A stretch of DNA of 25,287 nt from the IMG/VR virus record IMGVR_UViG_3300032220_001393, positions 1 through 25,287 of that record, one strand, 5' to 3'. Position numbers and translations under genes: made by a program. Shown in pieces: positions 11,596 through 22,361 of the stretch. Below the pieces are notes generated by a model that was given only the letters and a program-made list of their open reading frames with translations, ran no database searches and was not told the origin of the DNA. This DNA is from a virus. The number at the start of each line of letters is the position of its first letter. The first letter of the stretch is position 1.

Positions 11596-12153
11596 ATGAG
11601 CATGACCATCCCCGAACTCAAGCACGAACTTGACGACGTACTGACTGATGACGAGAAACGAGAACGTTTCCGCATTGAGGACGACGGTTCAGCAACTTGG
11701 GCAATGCGAAAACTTGCCGAAATTGTGACCACTCAGAAAGAAACCGAATTCTTGCTGAAGTCCGAACAAGAACGACTTAACCATTGGTTTGAGAGCGTGA
11801 TGAAACCGCTCCGAGACAAGGCTACGTTCTTTGAGAGCATCCTCGGCGACTACGCAGTCCGAGAACGCTTTGCCAACGATCGCAAAACGATCACACTGCC
11901 TCACGGCAAAATCAGCACCCGACCAGCGTCCGACAAATGGGACATTGACAACGACATCCTGATGGCGTTCCTCAAGTCAAGCGACTACAAAGAACTGATC
12001 AAGGTCAAAGAGGAACTTTCGCTTTCCGCTTTGAAGAGCGCCTTCTCAGTCACCAAAGATGGCAATGTGGTAACTCCCGAAGGTGAACTCGTGCAGGGAA
12101 TCACAATCCGACCCACCGACATTTCAGTCTCAATCAACCCGACAACAGAATAG
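11596..12153 (+). CDS. Gam-like host-nuclease inhibitor
   Basis: 185 residues, with GAAAGGA upstream of the ATG (a second ATG follows two codons later). Mu Gam-type proteins bind double-strand DNA ends and shield them from host exonuclease. The layout fits: a long helical N-terminal half with a coiled coil (KLAEIVTTQKETEFLLKSEQ, then WFESVMKPLRDKATFFESIL), followed by the compact beta part with KTITLPHGKISTRPASDKW and the C-terminal VVTPEGELVQGITIRP. The K-T-x-x-L-P-x-G-x-(I/L) and G-E-x-V-x-G-(I/V) elements are typical of Gam-like proteins in phage recombination modules. A RecA-fold ATPase gene follows nine bases later, which supports a recombination role. Recognition is by pattern. Confidence 0.7.
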   Translation: MSMTIPELKHELDDVLTDDEKRERFRIEDDGSATWAMRKLAEIVTTQKETEFLLKSEQERLNHWFESVMKPLRDKATFFESILGDYAVRERFANDRKTITLPHGKISTRPASDKWDIDNDILMAFLKSSDYKELIKVKEELSLSALKSAFSVTKDGNVVTPEGELVQGITIRPTDISVSINPTTE

Positions 12154-12162
12154 GAAAACAAC

Positions 12163-13092
12163 ATGAGCAAATCGCTGTTTCAACCAGCATCAAAGCAACA
12201 AGCGAGAGCGAGGGTAGCATTCTCAGGCTCCTCTGGCTCAGGCAAAACGTACTGGTCGCTCGCATGGGCAAGCGTCCTCGCCGAAGGGAACAAGGTAGCG
12301 TTCATTGATACGGAACGAGGCTCGGCAAGCCTCTACGCCGATCAGTTCGCCTTTGACGTCCTAGAAATGCGACCGCCCTTTCACCCCGACCGATTGGTTG
12401 AGGCGCTCCAAGAAGCAACCAAGGCAGGGTACCGAGCAGTCGTTGTTGACTCGCTCACACACTTTTGGAGCGGTCAAGGCGGAACGCTAGAAATTGTTGA
12501 TCAAGCGTCCAGCAGGTTCAAAGGCAACACGCACGCCGCGTGGCAAGTAGGAACTCCGATCCAGCAACGAATGGTTGACGCCCTACTCGGCTTTGAAGGT
12601 CACTTGATCGCAACGATGCGAGCCAAAACCGAATGGGTGATGGAACCCGACGAGCGAGGACGAGTCACACCTCGCAAGGTCGGACTCGCACCCCAGCAAC
12701 GTTCCGACATAGAATTTGAATTCACAATGATGATGGAAATTGAAGCGTCATCACATCGGGCTTCGGTTTCCAAGAGTCGCTTCGCCGACTTTGCCGACAA
12801 GGTGTTCGCACCAAACGAATGCCACTCAAGCGCCGAGCAGTTCCTCGGATGGTTGAAGTCAGGCAAACAAATGGTGAGCCGAAACATCGGTGACGGAATC
12901 AAACAGCAGATCAGCCTCCTGAACGATCTGCAACGGGACTACTTGCGAGAGCAATGGAAACTTCTCGGTTTACCGAAAGCCGAACACCTTGATGAGGACT
13001 CGGTTGAAACCGCTCAACTGATTTTGAGAGAGGCGCTTCAAATTGTGCCGTTTGAGGAACCAGCCGAGGAACTCGCTGAAGCACCCTTCTGA
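12163..13092 (+). CDS. Sak4-like RecA-fold ATPase (AAA_24)
   Basis: 309 residues. Sak4-type ATPases work as single-strand-annealing or recombination partners in phages, usually with an SSB or other partner. Walker A is G22-S-S-G-S-G-K28-T29; an acidic FIDTERGSASLYAD follows (about 48-60), and Walker B is VVVDS with D96. The P-loop start, Asp/Glu after beta 3, and a T-M-R-x-K motif (151-155) match the AAA_24/Sak4 group. Residues about 240-309 form a helical C-terminal extension (LLNDLQRDYLREQWKLLGLP) with an acidic end, not part of the core. It is next to a Gam-like gene. A DNA-packaging or helicase ATPase is less likely because of the short RecA-like core. Confidence 0.8.
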   Translation: MSKSLFQPASKQQARARVAFSGSSGSGKTYWSLAWASVLAEGNKVAFIDTERGSASLYADQFAFDVLEMRPPFHPDRLVEALQEATKAGYRAVVVDSLTHFWSGQGGTLEIVDQASSRFKGNTHAAWQVGTPIQQRMVDALLGFEGHLIATMRAKTEWVMEPDERGRVTPRKVGLAPQQRSDIEFEFTMMMEIEASSHRASVSKSRFADFADKVFAPNECHSSAEQFLGWLKSGKQMVSRNIGDGIKQQISLLNDLQRDYLREQWKLLGLPKAEHLDEDSVETAQLILREALQIVPFEEPAEELAEAPF

Positions 13093-13272: not shown

Positions 13273-14043
13273 ATGAGCGCTTTATTAATGAGCGAGCGTT
13301 TCGTGGCGGTATTCCCATCGCTGGTCAAAGCGTTAGGTGGACTGCCCGAAGCAACAATCACTCAAGAAATTCACTACCAAATTCAAGTCGGCGGACGGAA
13401 CCACGAAGGTCAAGTGTGGGTTCCAGCAACGGTTCAGAACTTAGCCGATGCGATAGGAATCTCTAAAGACGCTGTCACCAGATCGTGCCGACACCTTCGT
13501 GACATCGGCGTTTTGGTCACCGCCAACCCTGAGGCATTTCAACGTCGGACGTGGTGGCGAATCAACTACGACGTCCTACTCCATTTAGCGAAATCGCAAA
13601 ATGCATCAAGCGAAATCGCAAGTTCTCAAGTTGCGAAATCGCCAAATCCAAAGAGCGGAATCGCAAGTTCATCTACTACTAAAGAAACTAAGAAGGTAGA
13701 TAAAGAAATAGCACCTTCCGATGAAAACGACGACGTCAAATTCGTACCAACCAAAGAGAACGCTGGCAACAGTGGAATGCTGGTCAAATTGTTTATTGAC
13801 AAGTTCCTCATCCTCTACTACCAAACGCCTGACCAACAACTGATCGGGCGAGTCGGACGGGATGCCAAACGGATGCTCGGTCAAGGACGAACCTTTGAGG
13901 AACTCAAACCTGCGGTTCTGCTCTGCGCCGAGTCAGGTCACGGGAACCTTCCTAGCGCCTACACTCAACTGCTCGCCAAAGGGCGAAAGAAAGAACCTAA
14001 AGGGTTCAACGGTATTCGTGAGTTCCTTGAGGACTCCGAATGA
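13273..14043 (+). CDS. Winged-helix replication initiator, O-like
   Basis: 256 residues; GAGGAG lies five bases before the ATG. Residues about 51-84 (VPATVQNLADAIGISKDAVT, then RHLRDIGVLV) form a winged helix-turn-helix: helix, recognition helix, then wing. A polar linker (about 105-160) follows, and its DNA holds four iterons. The C-terminal half (about 165-256), with KLFIDKFLILYYQ and GRTFEELKPAVLLCAESG, is a separate helical domain like those in DnaD- or O-type initiators that contact the helicase loader. Lambda O has the same order: DNA-binding domain, linker containing the origin repeats, then the protein-contact domain. The helicase-loader gene follows in a four-base overlap. Origin binding is inferred from this layout. 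Confidence 0.75.
   Translation: MSALLMSERFVAVFPSLVKALGGLPEATITQEIHYQIQVGGRNHEGQVWVPATVQNLADAIGISKDAVTRSCRHLRDIGVLVTANPEAFQRRTWWRINYDVLLHLAKSQNASSEIASSQVAKSPNPKSGIASSSTTKETKKVDKEIAPSDENDDVKFVPTKENAGNSGMLVKLFIDKFLILYYQTPDQQLIGRVGRDAKRMLGQGRTFEELKPAVLLCAESGHGNLPSAYTQLLAKGRKKEPKGFNGIREFLEDSE
13588..13711. other. Putative replication origin: four iterons plus AT-rich segment
   Basis: The core GCGAAATCGC occurs at 13588-13597, 13610-13619, 13633-13642 and, with one change (GCGGAATCGC), 13655-13664. Start-to-start spacing is 22, 23 and 22 bases, about two helical turns. Copies 1 and 3 are read in one codon phase and copies 2 and 4 in another, so the repeat is conserved as DNA, not protein. Each core is a near-palindrome (GCGA-AA-TCGC). 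The next 47 bases (13665-13711) are about 72% A+T by hand count, suitable for strand opening. This copies the layout of lambda ori inside gene O. Confidence 0.75.
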
Positions 14044-14693
14044 CTCCCGTTCAGGTCAGCGAAATCCTCGCCTACGCCTCCTCAGGGTACCCTCACATCA
14101 ATCTGAGCAAAGAAACGGTATCTGTCTACGTTGACTTGCTCGGCGACCTTGACTACGGCACCGCTAAGCGTGCTGTGAGGCGCTTGGTGGCGACGTCGGA
14201 CTACTTCCCTTCCCCAGCATCAATTCGGCGTGAAGTCGCCTCCCTGAGCGGAATGCTCGCCCCAACTGCAAACGAGGCGCTTGAACAAATCCGACGCCAA
14301 ATTGAACTGCGAGGAAGCGGTGCGAACATGGAGCGGTGGTTGCATCCAGCGGTGGAGGAAACAGTCAGGGCGCTTGGTGGCGTCAGGGAGTTCGCCATGA
14401 CAACCAACTTTGACACGATGCGCGCCCACTTCCTTAAAATGTACGAACGGGCAGTTGAGAAGCACGACAAAACTACGCTCCTAACCAAAGGCGCACAAAT
14501 TGGAGAACTGAATGAAGCGGTCCGAACCTCCGAAAAGAAAGACGCCGTTAAAGCGATCAACCAAACCAATCAAACGGACACCGTTGAAGTCGTCACGCTC
14601 CAAACAAGCGACCCCGAACGTCAAGAAGTTAATCGCCGAAAGGTCACGGAACTTTTGCGAAGCCAATCTCAGCGGATGCACGAGAACAGTTGA
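14040..14693 (+). CDS. Putative replicative helicase loader (G39P/P-like)
   Basis: 217 residues, starting in a four-base overlap with the initiator gene. The N-terminal 90 residues (VSEILAYASSGYPHINLSKE, then VDLLGDLDYGTAKRAVRRLV and DYFPSPASIRREV) match the small helical domain of phage helicase loaders such as SPP1 G39P. A helical bundle with a Y-F-P-S-x-A-x-I-R signature is typical. These proteins bring the host DnaB-type helicase to the initiator at the origin. The C-terminal part is polar and flexible (MRAHFLKMYERAV, then Lys/Thr/Asn-rich). Its last 182 bases are also read in another frame as the HNH gene. The call rests on the domain pattern and on following an O-like initiator. Confidence 0.65.
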   Translation: MTPVQVSEILAYASSGYPHINLSKETVSVYVDLLGDLDYGTAKRAVRRLVATSDYFPSPASIRREVASLSGMLAPTANEALEQIRRQIELRGSGANMERWLHPAVEETVRALGGVREFAMTTNFDTMRAHFLKMYERAVEKHDKTTLLTKGAQIGELNEAVRTSEKKDAVKAINQTNQTDTVEVVTLQTSDPERQEVNRRKVTELLRSQSQRMHENS

Positions 14694-17505: not shown

Positions 17506-17775
17506 ATGAGCGAAATACGATTGTTAGATAGCGAAGCCTTACAAGCCTTGCGACACGGGGAGGTTCCGACTGACCTGCAACTGTCCGAGGGCTTCAACTT
17601 CGCTGTCAACATAGTCAACCGAGAGGACGCATTGTTGGCGCTTGACGCTTACAACGAGTTCGGCAAAGCGGTGATCAACGGTGAAAAGAGTCGCAAGAAT
17701 CGTGAGTGGGCAATATTCATGTGCCTGCGCCGAAGCGCCGAGGACAGGATGTTGAGGTTTCAAGATGCAAAGTGA
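17506..17775 (+). CDS. Small protein of unknown function
   Basis: 89 residues. The ATG at 17506 is chosen because AAGGAG ends five bases before it; an in-frame ATG at 17482, overlapping the previous stop, is an alternative. The product starts MSEIRLLDSEALQALRHGEV, with an alternating hydrophobic pattern, then a helical middle (DALLALDAYNEFGKAVI) and a basic helix (RKNREWAIFMCLRRSAEDRM). No motif is recognised and there is no membrane segment. It overlaps the WhiB-like gene by 11 bases. Confidence 0.55.
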   Translation: MSEIRLLDSEALQALRHGEVPTDLQLSEGFNFAVNIVNREDALLALDAYNEFGKAVINGEKSRKNREWAIFMCLRRSAEDRMLRFQDAK

Positions 17776-18250
17776 ACCAGCACCAAAAATGCTAGAGGTT
17801 GACCGAGAATGGATGACTCAAGCGTCCTGCAAAGGGACTCCGCCGAGCGTGTTCCATCCTGCCAAGGGCGAGTTCGGTTTGATGAAACAAGCCTTAACCA
17901 TCTGCAACGGGGAACCGAAAACCCGAAAGAAGGCAGGCAAACCACCCTGCCCCGTTCGTGAACAATGTTTAGCGTTTGCGATGAGCCTTCCTCAGTCCGT
18001 TGACCTTGTCGGTGTGTACGGTGGCAAAACACACAAACAGCGACTGGTCATGCGCCGAGAAATCAACCGAGAGAACGGTGGCATACGTCCACCCTGCGGA
18101 ACGACCGCAGGTTTTAACTTCCACCGCCGAAACGCCGAGCCAGCCTGCATTGACTGCAAAATCGCTGAGCACAAACGCCGAGAGGATCGCAACCGACTCT
18201 CGCTTGAAAACAGGATCAAACACAAAGAAGCAAAAGAGGAGAACCAATGA
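17765..18250 (+). CDS. WhiB-like protein with wide Cys spacing and extra zinc-like domain
   Basis: 161 residues. WhiB-like factors hold a [4Fe-4S] cluster on four Cys and steer transcription or redox response. Here the Cys are C22, C47, C62 and C68. The normal family pattern is C, C-x2-C-x5-C; here the second and third are separated by 14 residues (CNGEPKTRKKAGKPPC), an insertion of about twelve. The turn motif GVYGGKT follows, as in WhiB proteins. The C-terminal half (RPPCGTTAGFNFHRRNAEPA, then CIDCK) has a Cys/His pattern resembling a small zinc-binding domain found in other actinobacterial proteins. An alternative start is M9. It could bind DNA or host sigma factor, as phage WhiB does in mycobacteriophage TM4. 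Confidence 0.75.
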   Translation: MQSEPAPKMLEVDREWMTQASCKGTPPSVFHPAKGEFGLMKQALTICNGEPKTRKKAGKPPCPVREQCLAFAMSLPQSVDLVGVYGGKTHKQRLVMRREINRENGGIRPPCGTTAGFNFHRRNAEPACIDCKIAEHKRREDRNRLSLENRIKHKEAKEENQ

Positions 18251-18486
18251 AAAAGCGACGCACCCTACTCAAACGCATCATGAGTTTGACCGTTCGGGAC
18301 TACCACAAATGGAACCGAGCCAAAACAATCGTGGTGATTCTTTGCATGGTGATTGCTTTCTATTCAATCGGTGACGTCCAGAACGAACGAATCATTGACA
18401 AACCCTTGCTCGCTTTCGCCAGCATGGTTTGTGGGTTTATCGTGGTTTCACGGATTGACTTTGATTGGGAACCAAAGAACAAATGA
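18247..18486 (+). CDS. Small two-helix membrane protein
   Basis: 79 residues, beginning in a four-base overlap with the WhiB-like gene. It has a very basic N-terminus (MKKRRTLLKRIM), one hydrophobic helix at about 27-42 (TIVVILCMVIAFYSIG), and a second at about 53-69 (PLLAFASMVCGFIVVSR). The positive start should face the cytoplasm, so both ends are inside. It sits outside the lysis block and before the helicase gene, so it is less likely to be a holin. A membrane effector or superinfection-exclusion protein is possible, with no evidence beyond topology. Confidence 0.6.
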   Translation: MKKRRTLLKRIMSLTVRDYHKWNRAKTIVVILCMVIAFYSIGDVQNERIIDKPLLAFASMVCGFIVVSRIDFDWEPKNK

Positions 18487-19334
18487 CCACGACGGAACGA
18501 ACGATCACGGTAGTGGACGGGAACTACGTCATTTTGTTCCCGTACAACAAAACGCTGGTCGTCGCCGTTAAGAATCTGGACGGGCGGAAATACGAACCGA
18601 CCACCAAATCGTGGTTAGTTCCGATTCGCACACGTTCCGATGTGTGGCAGTTTGTGGAGGAAAACGACTTCACGGTCACACCCGAAGTCGTAGCCTCAGC
18701 CAAAGCCAACGTGAAGCCTGTGGACGCCGAACTCGGTGGGTCGCTTCAAATCAAAAGCGCCAAATTCTGGATCAAGTTCCCGTACGACCCCGAAGCAGTC
18801 AGCGCCGTGAAAGAAATCAACGGTCGCCGATGGGACGTTGACAACAAAGTCTGGATCGCACCCCTATCTAGCGTCCGAGCCGTTCGGGACTTCGTGGATC
18901 GTTTCGGACTTGAAACGATCGGTGTTGAGGACATCCCCGACAGCGACCCCGTCATAGAGCCAACCATCAGCCTTGACCAACAGTCGTTCATCATCCGTTT
19001 TGAGTACGACCGTGATCTCGCCGAACGAGTCCGTGACATCCCGACCGCTTCATGGGACTCGGTGGCTAAAGGGTGGCGCATCTCAAAACACGCCACCCAC
19101 GACGTTGCCGAATTCGCGCGCACGTCAACAGCGGTCATTGAAAAGTCAAGCGTTGAAATCCTTGATGAAGCAGTACGCCAAATGCAGAACATTCAACAAT
19201 CACGAGCAACCGACGCCGAATTGGTGATACCAACGTTGAACGGAACGTTGCTCCCCTTTCAACGGGCAGGCGTTTTGTACACCCTCAACGCTTTAGGTTT
19301 TCGCCAACAAGAAAACGGGACATGGTCGGTATGA
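18483..19334 (+). CDS. SMARCAL1-like helicase, N-terminal part with three HARP repeats (frame-broken)
   Basis: 283 residues from an ATG overlapping the previous stop by four bases (a TTG 18 bases earlier is less likely). Three copies of a roughly 55-residue unit lie near residues 7-62, 86-140 and 158-212. Each follows the pattern (F/I)-x-x-x-F-(P/E)-Y-(N/D), then (L/I)-x-x-(R/A)-x-(Y/W)-(E/D), then W. This matches HARP domains, which let SMARCAL1-type enzymes bind DNA forks and anneal strands. The end (LLPFQRAGVLYTLNALGFRQ) is the first SNF2 helicase motif, but the frame stops at 19334 before the ATP site. The ATPase continues in the +1 frame, which is open from 19297. The two pieces almost certainly come from one gene. 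Confidence 0.75.
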   Translation: MTTTERTITVVDGNYVILFPYNKTLVVAVKNLDGRKYEPTTKSWLVPIRTRSDVWQFVEENDFTVTPEVVASAKANVKPVDAELGGSLQIKSAKFWIKFPYDPEAVSAVKEINGRRWDVDNKVWIAPLSSVRAVRDFVDRFGLETIGVEDIPDSDPVIEPTISLDQQSFIIRFEYDRDLAERVRDIPTASWDSVAKGWRISKHATHDVAEFARTSTAVIEKSSVEILDEAVRQMQNIQQSRATDAELVIPTLNGTLLPFQRAGVLYTLNALGFRQQENGTWSV

Positions 19335-19371: not shown

Positions 19372-20694
19372 GTGAACGGCGTCCTTATAGGCGATGAACA
19401 AGGTCTCGGTAAAACGGTACAAGCGATCGCCGTTCTTGAAGCAACCACCGCCTACCCTGCGATCATCGTAGTGCCAACTTCAGTCCGACTGAATTGGCGA
19501 CGAGAACTCCAACGCTGGCTACCGCACCGAACGGTCACCGTTTGCTACGGAACGAAACCCGAACCGATCACCACCGAAATTGCTGTGATCGGTTGGGATA
19601 CATTGTATGCATGGGCTGAACACCTCACCCCGAAAGCGGTCGTCTTTGACGAGTCCCACCTAGCCAAAAGCGGTGAAGCAAGACGGACCCACTCCGCAAT
19701 CATCCTCGGCGACAGAGCCAGAGACAACGGTGGCTACGTCCTCGCCCTTTCAGGAACTCCCGTCCTCAACAAGGCACAGGAACTGATGACTCAACTACGG
19801 ATCATCGGACGCCTTGACGAGTTCGGCGGTGCCAGAGGGTTCAAGCGTGACTTCAGCGCACCCGAAACCCGACCAATTCTCAACCGCCAACTCCGAGCAC
19901 GATGCTACGTCCGCCGAAGGAAGGACGAAGTCCTCACCGAACTCCCACCGAAACGGTACGCCAAAATCGTGGTGGAAGGCGACCCCGTCATCATGGAACG
20001 CTACCGAAAAGCCGAAGAGGACATCGTTGACTACATCGCAAAGATCGTGGAGGAAGGCGCCAAAGCGTCAGGGTTAACGGACGCTCAGGCTCGGCGAGTC
20101 GCAGGGTTGAAGGCGCTCCGAACGCAGTCCGCCCAACACCTCGTTGCGATCACCACGTTGAAACAAATAGCGGTGGAAGCAAAACAGCACGCCATCGGCG
20201 CATGGTTGACGGACTTCGTAGCCTCAGGCAAAAAGGTGGTCGTGTTCGGTTACCACCGCCGAATCGTTGATTGGATCGCCGACGAGTTCGCTGGCGGAAT
20301 CAAAATCCAAGGTTCAATGGACGACGAAGCAAAACAGGCAAACATTGACCGCTTCCAAAACGTCCCCGAACAACAGGTCATCTCCTGCTCACTCAAAGCC
20401 GCGGGAGTAGGAATCACACTCACCTCTGCAAGCGACGTCCTCTTTGTGGAACAAGGGTGGACACCAGCCGATCAAGATCAAGCGTCCGACCGATGCCACC
20501 GCATCGGGCAAACAGACTCGGTCACGGTCTACACCACCATTTGTGAAGGGACCATTGACGAGGCGATCTACGACCTGATTGAACAGAAACGCCTCGTGGT
20601 CAATGCGGTCACCGACGGGACAGTTGCCGACGTTGACTCTGCCGAATCGGTGCTGTCCGAACTTCTGGTCCACCTCGCTGGGAAACGCGCGTGA
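19372..20694 (+). CDS. SMARCAL1-like SNF2 helicase, ATPase core (frame-broken)
   Basis: 440 residues from the first GTG in this frame; the frame is open back to 19297, so the true reading probably enters by a shift from the preceding piece. Motif I is DEQGLGKT; motif II is the DEAH-type DESH (VVFDESH); motif III is LSGTP; the C-terminal RecA lobe has motif V-like AAGVGITLTSASDVLF and motif VI QASDRCHRIGQ. SNF2 enzymes translocate on double-strand DNA. With the HARP repeats the whole would be an annealing helicase, which rewinds stalled forks. A stand-alone product would lack the first helicase motif. The stop overlaps the second WhiB-like gene by four bases. Confidence 0.85.
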   Translation: MNGVLIGDEQGLGKTVQAIAVLEATTAYPAIIVVPTSVRLNWRRELQRWLPHRTVTVCYGTKPEPITTEIAVIGWDTLYAWAEHLTPKAVVFDESHLAKSGEARRTHSAIILGDRARDNGGYVLALSGTPVLNKAQELMTQLRIIGRLDEFGGARGFKRDFSAPETRPILNRQLRARCYVRRRKDEVLTELPPKRYAKIVVEGDPVIMERYRKAEEDIVDYIAKIVEEGAKASGLTDAQARRVAGLKALRTQSAQHLVAITTLKQIAVEAKQHAIGAWLTDFVASGKKVVVFGYHRRIVDWIADEFAGGIKIQGSMDDEAKQANIDRFQNVPEQQVISCSLKAAGVGITLTSASDVLFVEQGWTPADQDQASDRCHRIGQTDSVTVYTTICEGTIDEAIYDLIEQKRLVVNAVTDGTVADVDSAESVLSELLVHLAGKRA

Positions 20695-21137
20695 GCCGAC
20701 CCTCTTGGTGGGATAACGCCAAATGCCTCGGACTCGGATGCGAGATGTTCTTTTCGCCTCCGTACCCCGAAATAGAAACGTCCGCCGAAAGACGGAAACG
20801 TGAACTGTCAGCAAAAACGGTCTGCAAAGAATGCACCGTGAAAGCGAAATGTCTACAGGAAGCGCTCGTAAACAACGATGATGGAGTCCGAGGAGGAATG
20901 ACGGTGCCCGAACGACGAAGGCTGAGTACGCCAATCCCGTACAGACGACCGAACCCGATCAGTTCGGATTGGCAGATCATTGTCAGCAGACCTAACCTTT
21001 TGAACACGACCGAAATGCGTTTAGAGCAAAGCCTCACTTCAAAGAACTACTACCGAGTGGTCCGAGGCTCCGACGTGATCGCTACCTATTTTGATGAGAT
21101 GGAGGCGTGGATTGGCTTGCACAACGCATCGTTGTGA
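20691..21137 (+). CDS. WhiB-like transcription factor
   Basis: 148 residues from a GTG overlapping the helicase stop by four bases. The four cluster Cys are C12, C45, C48 and C54, with the normal C-x2-C-x5-C end (VCKECTVKAKC). An additional C17 lies near the first. The family turn GVRGGMT is followed by a basic E-R-R-R. WhiB proteins bind a [4Fe-4S] cluster and often contact the host sigma factor. Residues about 90-148 form an extra C-terminal part not found in short WhiB proteins, probably alpha/beta (RVVRGSDVIATYFDEMEAW). Its last bases hold the -35 box and operator-like repeat of the next promoter, so auto-control is possible. Confidence 0.85.
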   Translation: MSRPSWWDNAKCLGLGCEMFFSPPYPEIETSAERRKRELSAKTVCKECTVKAKCLQEALVNNDDGVRGGMTVPERRRLSTPIPYRRPNPISSDWQIIVSRPNLLNTTEMRLEQSLTSKNYYRVVRGSDVIATYFDEMEAWIGLHNASL

Positions 21138-21164: not shown

Positions 21165-22361
21165 ATGTCCGAACGTGTCCTCGTGACCAGCACCAAAGTG
21201 CCGATCAGCGAACTCAAACCGCATCCCCGAAATCCCCGTAAAGGAAACGTCGGTGCAATCGTTGACTCGTTGGAGTTCCACGGTCAATACCGTCCCATTG
21301 TCGCCCAAACGTCAACGGGATACATTCTCGCTGGCAACCACACGTTTCTCGCGGCGAAAGAACTCGGCTGGGACTCGGTGGCGGTTTCGTGGCTAGACGT
21401 GGACGATGCAACAGGGGAAAGAATCATGGTTGCTGACAACCGAACATCCGATTTGGCTTCGTACAACAACGACGCCCTTGCGGACTTGTTGCACTCACTT
21501 CCCGACCTTGACGGTACAGGTTTCACCCGACTTGATCTTGATGAACTTGACGGACTTTTCGAGGATACTCCCGAACCTGTAGACAAACCGATCTCAACAC
21601 CGAAACCGAAAGCAACGATCAGCATTGGTTCGGACCAATTGTGGGTGGACGAACAACCGCTTCAACAGTGGCTCGCACCCTTTGAAGGTCTGTCAAAGAA
21701 GGAAGTCGTACAACTCCTGTCCGACCGACTCGGCTTCCCCGAACCTGCCAAACCCGAAAAGGTGACTCGCCGAAGCCCCGAACGGATATCAGGCAACGTA
21801 GAAACAGTCAACATTGACTACCTGCAACCGTACAACGGCAACGCACGAGAAGGGGACATCGGTGCGATCTCCGAGTCGCTTCGCCACCTCGGTCAGTTCC
21901 GCCCCGTTGTAGTTCAACGGTCCACAAACCTGATCCTTGTCGGAAACCACACGTGGCGTGCCGCGAAACACCTCGGATGGAAACGAATAGCAGTCGCATG
22001 GGTAGAAGTGGACGATGAGCAGGCAAAACGCATCGTCCTCGTTGACAACCGAACCGCTGACCTTTCAGGGTACGACGACAACAACCTCATCGCTCTCCTC
22101 ACCAACCTTTCGTCGCTGGACGGGACAGGTTTCTCAGGCGACGACCTTGACGACCTTTTGAACGACGTCAAAAGCGACCGAGACCACCGACCCACCAAAG
22201 ACAAAACGATCCGATGTTCCGTTGACAAGTATTCGTGGAAAGTCCCGACCGCTGACTACATCAAATGGTCAACCGAAATGGGCGACATCAACCGATGCAC
22301 AATAATCGCTCAAAGGCTCGCCCTCCCCGAAGGATCGTGGACTTCGGAAAACCCGAAATGA
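21165..22361 (+). CDS. Double ParB-domain protein
   Basis: 398 residues; AAAGGAG precedes the ATG. Two ParB/Srx-fold domains occur, at about 3-130 and 210-345. Each has an N-(P/A)-R-x-G start (HPRNPRKGN; YNGNAREGD), a G-N-H-x-x-x-A-A box (AGNHTFLAAKELGW; VGNHTWRAAKHLGW), and a D-N-R-T loop. Both end in L-D-G-T-G-F followed by a D-L-D run. The same box occurs in the ParB-methyltransferase fusion downstream. The ParB fold serves DNA segregation, nuclease or CTPase functions; this version is common in phages near methyltransferases, with unknown role. The two halves are similar but not identical, so duplication is old. The connecting part (about 145-205) is Pro/Lys-rich. Confidence 0.8.
   Translation: MSERVLVTSTKVPISELKPHPRNPRKGNVGAIVDSLEFHGQYRPIVAQTSTGYILAGNHTFLAAKELGWDSVAVSWLDVDDATGERIMVADNRTSDLASYNNDALADLLHSLPDLDGTGFTRLDLDELDGLFEDTPEPVDKPISTPKPKATISIGSDQLWVDEQPLQQWLAPFEGLSKKEVVQLLSDRLGFPEPAKPEKVTRRSPERISGNVETVNIDYLQPYNGNAREGDIGAISESLRHLGQFRPVVVQRSTNLILVGNHTWRAAKHLGWKRIAVAWVEVDDEQAKRIVLVDNRTADLSGYDDNNLIALLTNLSSLDGTGFSGDDLDDLLNDVKSDRDHRPTKDKTIRCSVDKYSWKVPTADYIKWSTEMGDINRCTIIAQRLALPEGSWTSENPK

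Follow-up and report, generated by a model that had tools for sequence, protein, structure and literature searches.

Four copies of the decamer GCGAAATCGC, one of them with a single change, and the AT-rich tract that follows them very probably form the replication origin of an uncultured phage, of the type carried inside the initiator gene in lambda and SPP1; this judgement covers the mechanism proposed below. The iterons, their dyads, their conservation, the weak duplex, and the neighbouring loader gene are read directly from the sequence, and the remaining steps of the mechanism are inferred. The window, meaning the whole stretch of DNA analysed, is 25,287 nucleotides long, and the features discussed here are collected in Table 1.

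Initiator gene, iterons, and the AT-rich tract

Table 1. Coordinates, in the window, of the putative origin and of the genes and domains associated with it.
Feature	Position	Strand	Basis or remark
Gene for the replication initiator, 256 aa, with a winged helix at the N-terminus, then a linker predicted to be disordered and a C-terminal domain	13273..14043	+	PHROG matches, AF2 model
Winged helix-turn-helix domain, residues 13-100	13309..13572	+	AF2 model, pLDDT mostly 70-86
Putative recognition helix, residues 65-78, including Asp66 and Arg70	13465..13506	+	AF2 secondary structure; S64/D66/R70 invariance; Asp association
Iteron 1, GCGAAATCGC	13588..13597	+	Codon phase 0
Iteron 2, GCGAAATCGC	13610..13619	+	Codon phase 1
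Iteron 3, GCGAAATCGC	13633..13642	+	Codon phase 0
Iteron 4, GCGGAATCGC	13655..13664	+	Codon phase 1; single change versus GCGAAATCGC
AT-rich tract, probable DNA-unwinding element	13665..13730	.	Window's least stable 47-100-bp duplex; same place in relatives
Probable helicase loader gene	14040..14693	+	4-base overlap with the initiator gene end; PF11417, phrog_2289

The initiator matches the PHROG families of DnaD-like loaders and O-like replication initiation proteins, the best match being phrog_6493 (E 2.3e-14), over residues 1-157, which comprise the winged helix and the linker. Its AlphaFold2 model, built from 10 sequences (mean pLDDT 52.5), is reliable at residues 13-100 only. Residues 107-165 have a pLDDT below 50, and the linker is thus predicted to be disordered; as the iterons encode residues 106-131, they lie inside this predicted disordered linker. 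A Pfam scan of the initiator at E up to 1 gave HTH domains only, and the RepA_N domain (PF06970) was not found.

The product of the adjoining gene contains the Pfam domain Inhibitor_G39P (PF11417; residues 6-58, 24.5 bits for a cut-off of 22) and matches the helicase loader family phrog_2289 (E 1e-7). A replicative helicase, G40P-like or DnaB-type, was not recognised in the fragment by family-library searches covering part of its genes; since no DnaB-type helicase was seen, the host or the part of the genome absent from this contig would supply it. The initiator gene is immediately preceded by a Mu Gam-like end-protection gene (11596-12153) and an AAA_24 ATPase gene, weakly Sak4-like (12163-13092), a pair that probably constitutes a recombination module.

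Start to start, the four iterons are spaced by 22, 23, and 22 bp. The original prediction had placed four repeats (one with a single change), 22-23 bp apart, in the linker of a winged-helix initiator, and its positions and spacings proved exact. Every copy forms a dyad, GCGA-AA-TCGC, a point absent from that prediction. Iterons 1-3 are the sole exact copies of GCGAAATCGC in the 25-kb window. Allowing one mismatch, 7 matches were found across the 25 kb for 2.4 expected, a number reached in 1 of 100 shuffles; taken alone, this count is weak evidence for iterons. When codons were resampled synonymously with the protein kept fixed, at most two exact copies were obtained in 20,000 trials, and three copies in none (0/20,000). 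With any decamer allowed as the repeat, four linker near-copies were obtained in 3 of 1,500 synonymous resamplings, a test that is conservative because the peptide itself already carries a repeat.

The 47 bases after iteron 4 (13665-13711) are 72.3% A+T, in agreement with the 72% originally given, and they are also the least stable duplex of the window. When segments of 47, 60, 80, and 100 bp were ranked by nearest-neighbour energies, the least stable ones began at 13665, 13668, 13664, and 13659, respectively, each of them ranking first in the window.

Conservation in relatives and competing explanations

A profile scan of viral contigs gave seven initiator-bearing loci (L028-L034), with one initiator near-identical to that of the window and the others 38-56% identical. 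Related phages had been pointed to as the place to look for conserved iterons, and repeats are indeed kept at the homologous place in all seven loci: four sites each in L029-L032, 22-23 bp apart and with 0-2 mismatches per site, and two exact copies plus one degenerate copy in L033 and L034. In every related locus, the weakest 60-bp duplex is found where the iteron array ends; beside the iterons, this 60-mer is the least stable of the complete contig in G1197 (53.6 kb), G1198 (56.8 kb), and G1200 (53.8 kb), with one tie, in G1198. The relatives, whose initiators show 38-60% identity, thus keep both elements of the lambda-style layout that had been proposed, that is, the repeats and the adjacent stability minimum within the initiator gene.

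The agreement with GC skew, of which a minimum had been expected at the origin, is only partial. The window alone has no turning point. The maximum of the detrended cumulative skew falls at 31,482 in G1198, on the iterons (31,474-31,528), and at 21,972 in G1200, at most 0.35 kb from the iterons, which begin at 21,652. In G1197 it falls at 35,326, which is 5.8 kb away from the iterons (beginning at 41,078). An extreme close to the iterons was, therefore, found in G1198 and G1200, as a maximum and not as a minimum. As this polarity is opposite to the usual bacterial case, and as gene orientation confounds the signal, little weight is given to it; skew was rejected as decisive origin evidence, G1198 and G1200 versus G1197 being ambiguous.

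The repeats could instead be operators, through which the winged-helix protein would regulate the transcription of its own gene (autoregulation or copy control), with replication starting elsewhere. Operators are also dyads bound by a winged-helix protein, and GCGAAATCGC pairs 22-23 bp apart are found just upstream of reading frames, outside the initiator, in the Bacteroidota loci L010 and L017. Nevertheless, the iterons are separated from the upstream initiator start codon by more than 300 bp and adjoin the least stable duplex of the fragment, likewise in relatives, and the gene belongs to replication-initiation families, with a helicase loader gene next to it, which makes this explanation improbable; autoregulation could coexist with origin function. 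Less probable still is a role of the dyads as mRNA hairpins that act on the initiator message, controlling its translation or its stability. The 141-nt RNA folds better than its dinucleotide shuffles (z -3.1), but self-complementary repeats fold well whatever the cause, and RNA structure leaves unexplained where the AT-rich minimum lies, why many phages with other cores have the 22-23-bp helical spacing, and the association with the recognition helix.

Selection on a repeated linker peptide, with the likeness of the DNA as a by-product, is barely credible: the peptide is itself repetitive (AKS..SEIA..AKS..SGIA), but neighbouring copies are read in different phases and yield different peptides, the iteron copies of the L028-L034 family occupy all three codon phases, the repeat-bearing linker is predicted to be disordered, and three exact copies never arose in the 20,000 resamplings. 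The view that selection acts on the DNA and not on the protein, first drawn from the two phases of the window, is reinforced by the three phases of the relatives. Each of these three explanations accounts for some of the observations, but none for the conserved stability minimum, the loader gene, and the phase-independence taken together.

For an origin, the steps would be as follows. The winged helix of the initiator would bind each GCGA-AA-TCGC as a dimer, and the four dimers, on the same helix face, would build a nucleoprotein complex bending the DNA. This complex would melt the DNA between 13665 and about 13730, whereupon the G39P-like loader would put a DnaB-type helicase onto the opened strand, and theta replication would then start. 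Because the linker is predicted to be disordered, and is tolerant, the site would cost the protein little, and initiator and target would be inherited together. As the contig is incomplete, a second origin could be located elsewhere.

Known in-gene origins and frequency of the layout

In lambda, as in the Stx phages P27 and 933W, the origin lies in gene O, with P adjacent: the segment coding for the linker holds four dyad iterons, 20-24 bp apart and in mixed phases, which are followed by an AT-rich tract and then by the loader gene (PMC7466680). The layout of the window is of this type, with at least three repeats two helical turns apart in the linker, adjoining a melt-prone AT-rich tract, and a loader gene directly downstream. 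The annotated lambda iterons begin at codons 116-138 of O (three phases), versus 105-130 here. The two systems differ in the iteron sequence, ATCCCTCAAAACGAGGGA in lambda being unlike GCGAAATCGC, and in the loader, which is P-like in lambda and G39P-like here. No direct homology was detected by hhalign between alignment A3 and lambda O (probability 0.2, E 0.39); phrog_678 and phrog_391 are each matched separately by lambda O and by the initiator of the window, weakly in the latter case (9e-6 and 1e-5).

In SPP1, oriL lies inside gene 38. The genes for the replisome organizer G38P, the loader G39P, and the helicase G40P begin as in the window, with an initiator gene and then a gene with a G39P domain (PF11417 above cut-off here), the likeness resting on the loader; SPP1 has G40P, whereas no G40P-like helicase was recognised in the fragment. 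G38P binds oriL and G39P recruits the helicase (PMC5615212). Staphylococcus phage fPfSau02 has a DnaD-like initiator, a helicase loader, and a helicase, in this order, and its linker repeats, three in number, are spaced by 22 and 23 bp. Its initiator is 27.5% identical to that of the window over residues 1-144, but its core is AGGTCAAAATGACC-like and its recognition helix reads SESTIKR, versus SKDAVTR in the window.

A comparable arrangement is found in RepA_N plasmids, where the winged-helix N-terminal domain of pSK41 Rep binds four Rep boxes located centrally in rep, and where the encoded linker is dispensable (PMC5703833). Using VIA-align, the winged helix of the window was aligned with the plasmid Rep initiators 4pql, 4pt7, and 5kbj (Z 9.7, 9.6, and 8.8, respectively), as well as with 2v79, the N-terminal domain of B. 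subtilis DnaD (Z 9.0); since many unrelated winged helices align too, and scores of such size are common among them, the fold by itself proves little. RepA_N systems differ in that they are plasmids, in that their C-terminal domain contacts DnaG, and in their Pfam domain, which the initiator of the window does not match.

In a de novo search of viral contigs, 42 of 69 non-redundant O/DnaD-like initiators had at least three linker repeats spaced by 20-25 bp, versus 1 of 67 neighbouring next genes, a control whose amino-acid composition was not matched to that of the linkers. The initiator groups surveyed differ in iteron core. Three to four linker repeats at about 22-23 bp, with other cores, are carried by Staphylococcus fPfSau02, Listeria FHC174-PLM34, Acinetobacter Abp95, Vibrio 1.112.O, and Pseudoalteromonas H6/1. 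On lambda, the repeat detector returned pairs only, because the lambda iterons vary, and 42/69 is, thus, likely an undercount; with the same detector, no iterons at 20-25 bp were found in TP901-1 rep. An AT-rich tract 3' of the iterons was dropped as a general rule, as, in the AT-rich phages of this wider survey, no clear A+T enrichment was seen in the 60 bp following the iterons (65% vs. 62%, p 0.08, 42 survey genes).

Considering the survey, the named phages, lambda, and RepA_N plasmids, the arrangement is therefore common, and lambda is its best-known case. This suggests that in-gene iterons spaced by two turns are the usual layout of O/DnaD-like phage initiators, and not a lambda peculiarity. 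The original prediction had seen here a possibly little-described origin type, unexpected in such a phage, a claim that is not supported: the same layout occurs in most of the O/DnaD-like initiators surveyed, in lambda, as a textbook case, and in RepA_N plasmids (PMC5703833). The window provides a well-supported new example of a common in-gene origin, not a new kind of origin.

Iteron core, recognition helix, and the phage

Two copies of GCGAAATCGC 8-16 bases apart were found in 23 stretches of the viral collection, versus 4 for the reversed pattern CGCTAAAGCG, a control of equal composition and symmetry. Besides the near-copy of the window, 8 or 9 of these 23 stretches belong to the linkers of initiator-like genes, and the phages concerned are clearly different; six of the proteins, when checked, match replication-initiation PHROGs, and L005 does not. 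A two-copy scan of 84,980 genomes yielded 92 matches, mostly due to chance in coiled-coil or tandem-repeat sequences, and GCGAAATCGC was rejected as a generic genome motif; on inspection, L048, L050, and L113 are the only initiator linkers among the 92. In the literature, GCGAAATCGC turned up in four papers only, and, judging by title or abstract, phage replication is the subject of none of them.

Outside initiator linkers, GCGAAATCGC pairs at 22-23 bp are present at L010:1106-1137, L017:406-438, and L106:4712-4743, the first two just before a reading frame, and L106 having sequence in common with L010; given such pairs, the motif might double as an operator. In Mycobacterium parascrofulaceum, winged-helix initiator-like genes carry five GCGAAATCGC linker copies (L050/L149) and two related copies (L148), both elements being in one genome, while in Mycobacterium sp. 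OTB74 the linker of an initiator-like gene (L113:1304-1472) has eight copies. These mycobacterial arrays are probably origins of integrated or plasmid-like elements.

The same decamer is found in unrelated initiators, from other phages and from mycobacterial and gammaproteobacterial genomes, and the GCGAAATCGC-core initiators of three subfamilies are otherwise 20-26% identical to that of the window. In the predicted HTH, S64, D66, and R70 are invariant in alignments A2 and A3, whose iteron-sharing initiators have no more than 20-60% identity with that of the window. Asp occupies position 3 of the recognition helix in 8 of 9 independent GCGA-bearing initiators, versus 4 of 78 initiators without the core, gathered by protein similarity (Fisher p 7e-8), the association being post hoc and the cases partly picked by iteron. 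Exceptions are L023, L281, and L275, and also L113, which was not counted, as its helix is not confidently assignable. A first helix rule (Asp then Gln/Ala) was dropped: L149 (SADTVKR) and L148 (SRDVVKR) have the core without the rule, and L275 (TKDQIRY) has the rule without the core. As a lead and not a rule, the association between Asp and the core suggests that the initiator itself reads the iterons.

More tentatively, GCGA-AA-TCGC might be one 'dialect' of a shared recognition code, in which the same core would recur across winged-helix initiator subfamilies and host phyla when residue 3 of the helix is Asp. For an uncultured phage, the origin sequence could then be deduced from the initiator, or the initiator from the origin, and cassettes of a wHTH and its iterons may have been transferred between phages as units.

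The fragment contains two WhiB-like genes (17765-18250 and 20691-21137; Pfam Whib, E 2e-11 and 7e-14), from which the phage probably infects actinobacteria. In the phage collection searched, there is no close relative, the best initiator matches reaching about 24-29% identity across half of the protein. Two further genes, 18465-19334, with HARP domains and a helicase Q-motif region, and 19372-20694, with an SNF2 motor from motif I, apparently encode one SMARCAL1-like helicase split across them. In G1197 and G1198, the motor ORF likewise begins just before motif I, with a conserved promoter-like TTGACC...TAGAGTT between the parts. A frameshift was also weighed, but the reading frames of the relatives give no support to it.

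The probable origin is narrowed to about 150 bp, a defined and testable piece of DNA from a phage group that is uncultured and probably infects actinobacteria. Through the association of the recognition helix with the iteron core, initiator specificity, origin prediction, and incompatibility become testable across phages.
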